DNA of 64,000 nucleotides, taken from positions 806,001-870,000 of the forward strand of contig NZ_RWBG01000001.1 of NCBI RefSeq assembly GCF_003944795.1, written 5' to 3'. The position numbers were made by a program, and so were the translations under genes. The first letter of the stretch is position 1; each line of letters opens with the position of its first letter. Of the stretch, positions 28,742 through 30,141 are shown piece by piece. The notes under the pieces were generated by a model. It did not search any database. It was not told the origin of the DNA and saw nothing but the letters and a program-made list of their open reading frames with translations. The DNA comes from Mangrovimonas spongiae (GTDB taxonomy: Bacteria > Bacteroidota > Bacteroidia > Flavobacteriales > Flavobacteriaceae).

Positions 28742-29263
28742 CTACTTCTTAGGTGGCTGCATAACGTGACCACAAGACGTGCAAGTGCGTTTTTCTTCGT
28801 TACTGTAATATTTATCAAAAATCACAGGCATATCGGTTTCTATATTATCCAACGGAAATTCCTCACGATACAACAGCTCATTGCAATTCTCACAATACCA
28901 CTCTAAGGCATCGTTTACTCCATCTGGGCGTGGATATTCTATTACTAAACCAACAGTGTCTGCTTGACGTTGTGGAGAATGTGGGACTTTAGGAGGTAGT
29001 AAATAAATATCCCCTTCCTTAATATGAACATCTTCGGGTTTGCCGTTGTTCATAATTTTAAGCACCATATCGCCTTCCAGCTGATAGAAAAACTCCGGTG
29101 TTTCGTTGTAATGATAATCTTTTCGGCTATTTGGGCCGCCAACAACCATAACAATATAATCACCATTTGGCCAAACACATTTGTTGCCAACAGGCGGTTT
29201 TAATAAATGGCGATTTTCATCAATCCATTCTTTAAAATTCAAAGGGGTTACTAAATTGCTCAT
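28742..29263 (-). CDS. nbaC: 3-hydroxyanthranilate 3,4-dioxygenase
   Basis: Non-heme Fe(II) cupin dioxygenase that opens the ring of 3-hydroxyanthranilate to ACMS. The 173-residue protein shows iron ligands in KDYHYNETPEFFYQLEGDMV (His and Glu) and LLPPKVPHSPQRQ (second His). The bacterial-type C-terminal rubredoxin-like site is present: CENCNEL at about residue 127 and CTSCGHVM at about residue 163. Translation begins at ATG 29263. The space upstream to the SDR gene holds a structured GC-rich element. The product feeds ACMSD. Confidence 0.94.
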   Translation of the reverse strand: MSNLVTPLNFKEWIDENRHLLKPPVGNKCVWPNGDYIVMVVGGPNSRKDYHYNETPEFFYQLEGDMVLKIMNNGKPEDVHIKEGDIYLLPPKVPHSPQRQADTVGLVIEYPRPDGVNDALEWYCENCNELLYREEFPLDNIETDMPVIFDKYYSNEEKRTCTSCGHVMQPPKK

Positions 29264-29279
29264 AAACTACATGTTTTTT

Positions 29280-29342
29280 GGGCGTGTCCCTTTCGGGTCG
29301 GGCTTTTCGCGCTACACGGTAGCTCGCTTCAATCCCTCACGC
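29280..29342. ncRNA. GC-rich structured element, putative RNA motif or small repeat
   Basis: A 63-base island of 63% GC in an AT-rich gap between the SDR and dioxygenase genes. The ends GCGTG (29282-29286) and CACGC (29338-29342) are inverted repeats. Inside, CCC-TTTC-GGG (29288-29297) and GCTAC-ACG-GTAGC (29311-29323) can form hairpins, so the whole can fold as a multi-branched RNA. I recall similar GGGCGTG...CCCTCACGC elements scattered in flavobacterial genomes; the Rfam family Flavo-1 is worth comparing, but I cannot confirm identity. One copy in the window, no ORF. Confidence 0.5.
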
Positions 29343-29358
29343 AGATTTTGTTATAAAG

Positions 29359-30141
29359 TTACAAAGATTTTGTTCGTCCACCATCAACAGGAAGGTTAAT
29401 TCCGTTAATGTAACTGGCGCGCTCGCTTGCTAAAAAAGTAATGGCATCGGCCAATTCTTCAGGTTTAGCAAAACGTTTTGCTGGAACGGCTTGTTTCATC
29501 GCGTTAGCAGCCTCATCTTTGGTTTTTCCAGTCTTAGCCGATTTGTTTTTTATAATTTCCGTTAAACGTTCGGTTCCTGTGGCTCCAGGCAATACATTAT
29601 TCACTGTTATACCAAACTGTCCCAATTCGTTAGCTAAAGTTTTACTCCAATTGGCCACAGCACCACGAATGGTATTACTTACACCAAGACCGTCTAAAGG
29701 TTGTTTAACCGAAGTGGAAATGACATTAACAATACGTCCGTAGCCTTCATCTTTCATAAAAGGGACTAGTGTTTGCGCTAAAACATGATTACATTTTAAA
29801 TGTTGTGTGAAGGCATTTTGGAACTCCTCTAATTTAGCATTAAAAATTGGTCCACCAGCAGGTCCACCGGTGTTGTTAACCAAAATATGAAACCCGTGGT
29901 TGTTGGCAATAAAGTCTGCAACTTTTTGTTGTAAGTCTTCTGGATTAGAAAAATCGGCTACAATGTAGCTGTGGTTTTCAGGGTGAGGTAATTCTGTTAA
30001 AACAGCTTTTAGTTTGTCTTCGTTTCTTGCTATAAGGGTTACGTTTGTACCTTCACTGGCCAAAGCTATTGCTGTCGCTTTTCCTATACCTGCAGTACTC
30101 CCGCAAACCAAAGCGTATTTATTGTTTAAGTTTAAATTCAT
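29359..30141 (-). CDS. Atypical short-chain dehydrogenase/reductase (catalytic Tyr/Lys missing)
   Basis: A 260-residue Rossmann-fold protein of the SDR superfamily, in the kynurenine cluster. The nucleotide motif is ALVCGSTAGIGKATAIALAS, and LVNNTGGPAGGP stands for the NNAG motif. The catalytic YxxxK is replaced: after the Ser in VNVISTSVKQPL the sequence reads GVSNTIRGAVANWSK, so Asn and Arg occupy the Tyr and Lys positions. This matches a known SDR subgroup resembling 3-oxoacyl-ACP reductases without a full tetrad. Whether it reduces anything is unknown. It lies between the semialdehyde dehydrogenase (96 bases upstream) and the dioxygenase. Confidence 0.85.
   Translation of the reverse strand: MNLNLNNKYALVCGSTAGIGKATAIALASEGTNVTLIARNEDKLKAVLTELPHPENHSYIVADFSNPEDLQQKVADFIANNHGFHILVNNTGGPAGGPIFNAKLEEFQNAFTQHLKCNHVLAQTLVPFMKDEGYGRIVNVISTSVKQPLDGLGVSNTIRGAVANWSKTLANELGQFGITVNNVLPGATGTERLTEIIKNKSAKTGKTKDEAANAMKQAVPAKRFAKPEELADAITFLASERASYINGINLPVDGGRTKSL

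Follow-up and report, generated by a model that had tools for sequence, protein, structure and literature searches.

A dispersed Flavo-1-like hairpin repeat with a variable inner part, and its copy before the 3-hydroxyanthranilate 3,4-dioxygenase gene of flavobacteria

Introduction

The described family closest to the element reported here is Flavo-1 (Rfam RF01705), which appears in a table of Weinberg et al. 2010 (PMC2864571) and is listed among the sRNAs in a review (PMC9029176). In Flavobacterium psychrophilum, Flavo-1 matches lie in several 5' regions, in sense or antisense orientation alike, with many of them outside transcribed regions and giving no clue to function (PMC9723704); the accessible parts of these three sources offer no function for the family. 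RF01705 also occurs in PMC3765529 and PMC7682815. As for dispersed palindromic repeats, REP/RAYT systems, and MITEs in this group, REPs have been counted in two Flavobacterium species (PMC12306157, whose accessible sections do not name Flavo-1), and the full unit presented below is not described in the titles or abstract openings of the open-access papers listed.

Here, we analyse one such element, located in a kynurenine operon directly upstream of the gene for 3-hydroxyanthranilate 3,4-dioxygenase (HAO). New with respect to the above are the full unit, its variable inner hairpin, the missing link to a RAYT, and a copy before HAO that is constant in orientation and distance.

Results

A Folded Element in the Gap between SDR and HAO

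The window, that is, the whole stretch of 64,000 nucleotides that was analysed (G000:C1:806001-870000, G000 being its source genome), carries on the minus strand a gene for an SDR-family oxidoreductase (29359–30141; PF13561, PF00106) followed by that for HAO (28742–29263; NF009763 at 274.9 bits, cut-off 220; PF06052). The SDR stop ends at 29359 and HAO starts at 29263, so that the gap between them spans 95 bases (29264–29358), as anticipated in the original prediction. The foldable GC-rich block predicted in this gap, with a length of 63 bases, corresponded to a match of 62 nt (29281–29342, minus strand, GC 0.63) to R1, a covariance model built from 20 hand-picked full copies whose E-values are rough. 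Up to an E-value of 1 it was the window's only R1 match, and its 78.7 bits are not independent of the model, as the window copy is among those 20. The element lies in sense with the operon, 16 nt downstream of the SDR stop codon and 17 nt upstream of the HAO start codon, with both genes on the same strand. The sequence TAACTTTATA (29352–29361, minus strand), overlapping the SDR stop, resembles the Bacteroidetes -7 box (TAnnTTTG) and may be part of a promoter; a TAA-CTTTA-like tail of this kind was present in 37 of the 72 loci where the SDR stop could be read.

A scan of the window at Rfam gathering scores detected only a tRNA. When 301 bases were scanned permissively, matches to isrJ (E 9.2, outside the element) and ALIL (E 2.3, overlapping its end) were obtained in addition to the Flavo-1 match described below, and both were taken as chance.

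Structure and Covariation of the Unit

On the minus strand, an outer stem, P1, closes over two arms: P2, formed by a core and an inner hairpin, and P3. P1 is formed by GCGTG (29338–29342) pairing with CACGC (29282–29286), with changes on both sides at four of its five pairs among 67 distinct copies. The core of P2 consists of GGG-A-TT-GAA-GC (29326–29336) and GC-GAA-AA-G-CCC (29300–29310), supported by covariation and by the sub-threshold alignment to Flavo-1. It encloses the variable part of the unit, here the hairpin GCTAC-CGT-GTAGC (29311–29325), named module C, which is found also at other loci and in other genomes, with relatives carrying module A or B in the same slot. Folding and covariation place P3, CCC-GAAA-GGG, at 29288–29297. 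All the stems named in the original prediction (GCGTG/CACGC, CCC-TTTC-GGG, and GCTAC-ACG-GTAGC) were thus present, but the Flavo-1-like P2 core had been missed.

The minus strand of the element, which has mRNA sense, folds at -21.6 kcal/mol (z -2.61; 2 of 200 shuffles equal or better), whereas the plus strand folds at -18.0 kcal/mol (z -0.37; 67 of 200), so that the proposed folding on either strand has to be qualified. For the full 95-base gap on the minus strand, z was only -1.25, with 19 of 200 shuffles equal or better. Folding of the single sequence is thus only modestly unusual by itself, and it is the covariation among relatives that lifts the structure beyond chance. In a first alignment, made of the 20 hand-picked copies and not fitted to the model, 92.3% of the cells pair (68.3% in P3, because its length varies), and covariation reached 0.252 versus 0.079 after shuffling, with none of 500 shuffles reaching the observed value. 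Among the 67 distinct copies, whose alignment was fitted to R1 so that its counts lean towards the model, changes on both sides were found at 12 of 15 pairs, and covariation was 0.383 versus 0.109 in the shuffled sets (0 of 500 as high) and at most 0.085 in slid controls. Covariation was also strong in a third alignment with the 28 R1 matches of the HAO loci, 25 of them directly before HAO. The compensatory changes sought on the basis of the original prediction are therefore abundant in the three alignments.

In the copy at L020 (1529–1590, minus strand), the non-canonical A-G pair of P2 is reversed to G-A (GGGG-TT ... AA-ACCC), so that both bases differ at a position without Watson-Crick pairing; the same was seen by eye in L132, L368, L373, and L385.

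Relation to Flavo-1 and Inner Modules

In the permissive scan of 301 bases, the window copy matched Flavo-1 on the minus strand at 20.9 bits (E 0.04), below the cut-off of 42. The alignment spans model positions 1 to 76, with the core P2 stem and the conserved internal loop present. Regarding the proposed membership in Flavo-1, kinship was confirmed by sister copies that pass the cut-off, but the window copy itself does not. In G251 (Algibacter), 9 of 20 full copies passed, 10 more matched below the cut-off (E up to 0.01), and one gave no match; all nine passing copies were classed as module A (GCATCC...GATATAGC or close to it). Four of 16 copies scanned from the four genomes of the genus passed as well, with one more at 41.6 bits, and the HAO-site copies of L125–L128, L021, and L047, all of module C, showed no Flavo-1 match at E up to 0.1.

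At least four types of inner hairpin (A to D) were distinguished. Other copies carry modules B (TTGGAGCTC...GAGCGACTACC) and D (AAAGCCCACAG...GAGGACTTG), and the window copy belongs to module C (CTACCGTGTAG). These assignments were made by regular expression, and L340 is counted as A though its inner part is closer to D. Given the module C of the window copy and the bias of the passing copies towards module A, the curated model therefore covers the core and mainly one kind of inner hairpin, the real unit being larger and modular. At C5:145115 of the own genome, a Flavo-1 match over the cut-off was found without a full-unit R1 match and, by eye, without P1 or P3.

Dispersal across Genomes

A plain DNA search of the own genome gave only partial second copies, of 30 and 37 bases (E below 0.01). 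With 121 bases as query, 17 of 40 genomes gave matches, including the own one and some that matched through flanking coding sequence only, and the same site was recovered in the other three genomes of the genus. Searching with R1 bore out the predicted small dispersed repeat, with 8 matches at E 0.01 in the own genome and 7, 8, and 3 in the other three of the genus. At E 1e-4, at least one match (up to 23) was present in 81 of 198 genomes of a class sample, and 17 of 118 genomes of a phylum sample were positive, one of these (G344) lying outside the class. In 12 genomes chosen through their HAO loci, from 1 to 101 matches were found at E 0.01, two of the genomes holding 60 and 101.

The copies are dispersed with their borders at P1: the unit is common to twelve copies of G186, while their flanks mostly differ from P1 outward, and three of them share a short upstream stretch. 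No consistent target-site duplication was seen in the flanks read by eye, and no empty site matched cleanly to a filled one. The genomic context was analysed for 122 non-HAO copies, corresponding to 61 of the 68 matches of one set (seven omitted: five HAO copies and two at contig edges) and to all 61 of another, taking as neighbours ORFs of at least 100 codons. Both neighbours were in sense in 30 cases and both antisense in 29, with 28 divergent, 20 convergent, 10 at an edge, and 5 inside such an ORF. The 3' end lay within 40 nt before a sense start in 12 copies, and the 5' end within 40 nt before an antisense start in 11. Copies away from HAO are thus mostly intergenic hairpins found in both orientations, a trait shared with REP elements, and have no orientation preference.

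Y1_Tnp genes, encoding the Y1 tyrosine transposases (RAYT) that mobilise REP elements, occur in 142 of the 198 genomes of the class sample. No Y1_Tnp gene was detected in the four genomes of the genus or in the copy-bearing genomes G048 (22 copies), G054 (9), G172 (7), and G000 (8), and none of 30 fetched Y1_Tnp loci, a part of all Y1_Tnp genes, had a copy of the element within about 1.5 kb. Because of this absence from the genus and from copy-rich genomes, and of the unflanked loci, a REP/RAYT system is unlikely to be the partner of the element. A candidate autonomous parent in G005, where copies near contig ends looked like a longer insert in the inner hairpin, was dropped after reading those ends: the copies at L029, L037, and L043 have similar short ACAACTTTTGG-like ends, perhaps an assembly or linker artefact, and no gene was noticed in them by reading.

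Two further contexts were recorded. At L141 (1501–1583), L142 (1501–1583), L035 (1390–1525), and L132 (1501–1598), the element lies in sense at a conserved site flanked by genes of 195 and 373 codons, probably leuD and leuB, with module B in three of the four genomes and module A in one (L132). In G002, an S15-Flavobacteria ribosomal leader of Rfam (L129, 1917–2008, minus strand, 48.5 bits) is found near a full element.

The Slot Upstream of HAO

In the best 80 of 567 HAO orthologue loci, that is, the nearest part of the larger set, R1 gave 28 matches over both strands (657 kb), 25 of them directly before HAO and all 25 in sense. A set of 86 loci, made of these 80 plus the window, L018–L021, and L024, was classed by pattern, in sense orientation only: the element was present in 32, a different block in 12, and neither of them in 42. 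Within the 80 loci, the pattern counts 26 copies, 25 of which are found by R1 (L103 was missed), and L108 is omitted from alignment A5. By module, the 32 copies comprised 12 of A, 9 of B, 9 of C, and 2 degenerate ones (L080 and L103), counted as present. The distance from the end of P1 to the HAO ATG ranged from 12 to 19 nt in these loci (mean 15.7, SD 1.4), with 15 nt in 19 of the 32; in the window, this A-rich spacer has 18 nt (29264–29281, minus strand). The distance to the SDR stop varied from 14 to 141 nt in the 27 loci where it was measurable. Both the position and the orientation of the HAO copies relative to their gene are therefore fixed across species, in contrast to the dispersed ones.

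On the HAO protein tree, presence of the element changes at least 20 times and the module at least 14 times; these are minimum counts on a weak tree (13 of 83 inner branches starred) that may contain gene transfer. Close relatives differ in the inner hairpin at the same site: the supported clade that holds the window (six rows, 98*) includes two members with module B and four with module C, and their SDR-stop distances are 74–80 nt in the former and 14–16 nt in the others. In addition, the stem variant AGG/CCT of P2 was found in 16 of the 32 HAO copies (eight of module A, six of module B, and both degenerate ones) versus 17 of 181 background copies (Fisher p 3.6e-7, an optimistic value as the rows are related). 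The only AGG copy among 20 sampled in G251 is that of HAO (L338), and in G246 the HAO copy is one of two among nine, whereas in G250 the variant occurs in four of seven copies, the HAO copy included, and thus does not single it out. On balance, the data favour a shared ancestry of many HAO copies, whose inner hairpin changed afterwards, over a fresh insertion each time.

In the HAO slot of Aestuariibaculum marinum (L075, 3876–3986), the copy carries extra DNA in the P2 arm, beside the hairpin of module C. The different block that precedes HAO at L048 (253–317) was also found, with 60–70 nt, in L052, L057, L061, L073, L082, L083, L087, L090, L097, L108, and L120. It consists of a hairpin ACTCAAAT-CCCG-ATTTGAGT, a second hairpin CTCCC/GGGAG, and then, 6–10 nt before the ATG, a GGG with the potential to pair with the CCC loop, and it corresponded to no Rfam family at gathering score. 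The block is dispersed too, with 1–18 matches, many of them weak, in 11 of 14 genomes. As at least ten inverted pairs were found, with starts 51–141 nt apart, and the copies of the HAO slot carry a promoter-like stretch, it looks like a promoter-carrying MITE. Separately, the TAA-CTTTA-like sequence at the SDR stop was present in 27 of 35 loci whose slot is empty and in 6 of 8 that carry module C. At loci with module A it was seen in 2 of 12, at those with module B in 2 of 7, and at those with the other block in none of 10, as if a putative basal promoter had been replaced on the arrival of other leaders.

Signals at the RNA or DNA Level

Across 211 distinct copies, the cells of P1 and P2 comprised 2485 Watson-Crick, 13 G-U, 3 A-C, and 26 other ones, compared with 4 G-U among 81 pairs in a control of eight tRNAs from the loci. 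Wobble steps are thus nearly absent from the changes in the stems, which would be expected of a palindrome kept at the DNA level or rewritten from other copies. As a proof of DNA-level structure this scarcity was rejected and is kept only as a hint, since the control is small and Watson-Crick pairs are favoured when copies are searched for with a covariance model. In three sets of copies, folding was better for the sense strand than for its complement (64 of 67, 50 of 60, and 25 of 28), as would suit a single strand of sense polarity at work as either RNA or DNA. This preference could mean RNA function everywhere, although inheritance of the loops from a common ancestor would have the same effect.

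Discussion

The original prediction was right on what the block is, and its interpretation as a whole is partly supported: a general role as cis-regulatory RNA is argued against by the lack of orientation preference elsewhere, and a leader role of the HAO copy is plausible from its constant orientation and spacing. We favour, with a probability of around 0.62, that the element is a hairpin repeat of the Flavo-1 type, dispersed and non-autonomous, whose copy before HAO would be an old resident possibly co-opted as a 5' leader. The full unit consists of the outer stem P1, the core arm P2 (the part modelled as Flavo-1 in Rfam) with its variable inner hairpin, and the second hairpin P3, and its copies would spread or be rewritten as a folded single strand, presumably through a trans-acting enzyme of the host or of a mobile element. 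That many HAO copies share an outer-stem variant suggests that the one in the window is a long-standing resident. With its constant orientation and with about 15 nt between it and the start codon, it may now form the 5' leader of the HAO message, and this leader would fold upstream of the A-rich initiation site, insulating or stabilising it. Given the minimum of 20 changes in presence and 14 in module on the HAO tree, this reading has to assume numerous losses, exchanges, or regains at the slot.

The position at HAO would also be expected if Flavo-1 elements, the window copy included, were cis-acting RNA regulators with a 5' leader as their general role. The conserved purine-rich internal loop together with the covariation, the better folding of the sense strand in 139 of 155 copies, and the copies between the 195-codon and 373-codon genes of four genomes, all in sense, are in agreement with such regulators. 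However, placement near a start away from HAO is divided between 12 sense and 11 antisense copies (within 40 nt), the F. psychrophilum matches are sense or antisense alike and many of them untranscribed, as far as the accessible part of PMC9723704 goes, and G-U pairs make up just 13 of 2498 paired cells, so we regard a general regulatory role as unlikely. A free-standing small RNA gene, as implied by the Rfam type of Flavo-1 ("Gene; sRNA") and by its listing in the accessible part of an sRNA review (PMC9029176), would hardly be squeezed 16 nt after a stop and 17 nt before the next start on the same strand, nor be expected in up to 101 copies per genome with differing inner parts; of all the alternatives, it is the one to which we give least credit.

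Regarding how the element came to the slot, functionless elements could have been inserted repeatedly at a hot spot before HAO. The second, different dispersed block found there at 12 of 86 loci and the 14 or more changes of module on the HAO tree are what a hot spot would produce, but the sense orientation of all 25 matches in the slot, the narrow range of distances to the ATG, and the AGG stem variant, shared at HAO and rarer elsewhere, make this quite improbable. Short, dispersed, mostly intergenic hairpins in a class where 142 of 198 genomes encode Y1_Tnp also bring to mind REP elements mobilised by a RAYT; yet with Y1_Tnp found in none of the four genomes of the genus, nor in G048, G054, G172, or G000, and with no copy near any of the 30 fetched loci, a RAYT as the mobiliser seems very improbable to us.

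Our preferred reading, a non-autonomous dispersed repeat with an old resident before HAO, might be extended in a more speculative way. Flavo-1 would then be the folded single-stranded body of a system of DNA rewriting or mobility of Bacteroidota, in which the frame is kept, the inner cassettes are swapped, and the HAO site has been domesticated as an RNA leader; we put this forward tentatively, as a possibility on the doubtful side. Flavo-1 is widespread in flavobacteria, and the full unit, together with an inner part that varies among copies at one site, stems changing nearly free of G-U steps, and an improbable RAYT partner, turns an orphan RNA label into the question of what moves or rewrites the element. 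In this regard, the HAO slot constitutes a natural experiment, with relatives that carry the element, a different block, or nothing.

Among known systems, the element shares with Flavo-1 (RF01705), also from Bacteroidetes, an identical core, GATTGAAGC...GCGAAAAGC, with identical pairs, whereas the Rfam model leaves P1 and P3 unpaired and favours inner module A. Like the REP/BIME repeats of proteobacteria with their RAYT, it occurs as short intergenic hairpins in up to about 100 copies and with no orientation preference, but it differs from them in its three-stem unit with a variable inner hairpin and in that no RAYT association was found. Finally, it resembles MITEs in being non-autonomous and dispersed and in having inverted ends; in contrast to these, no parent transposon was found, and it is a unit of about 60–165 bp whose ends are merely a 5-bp stem.
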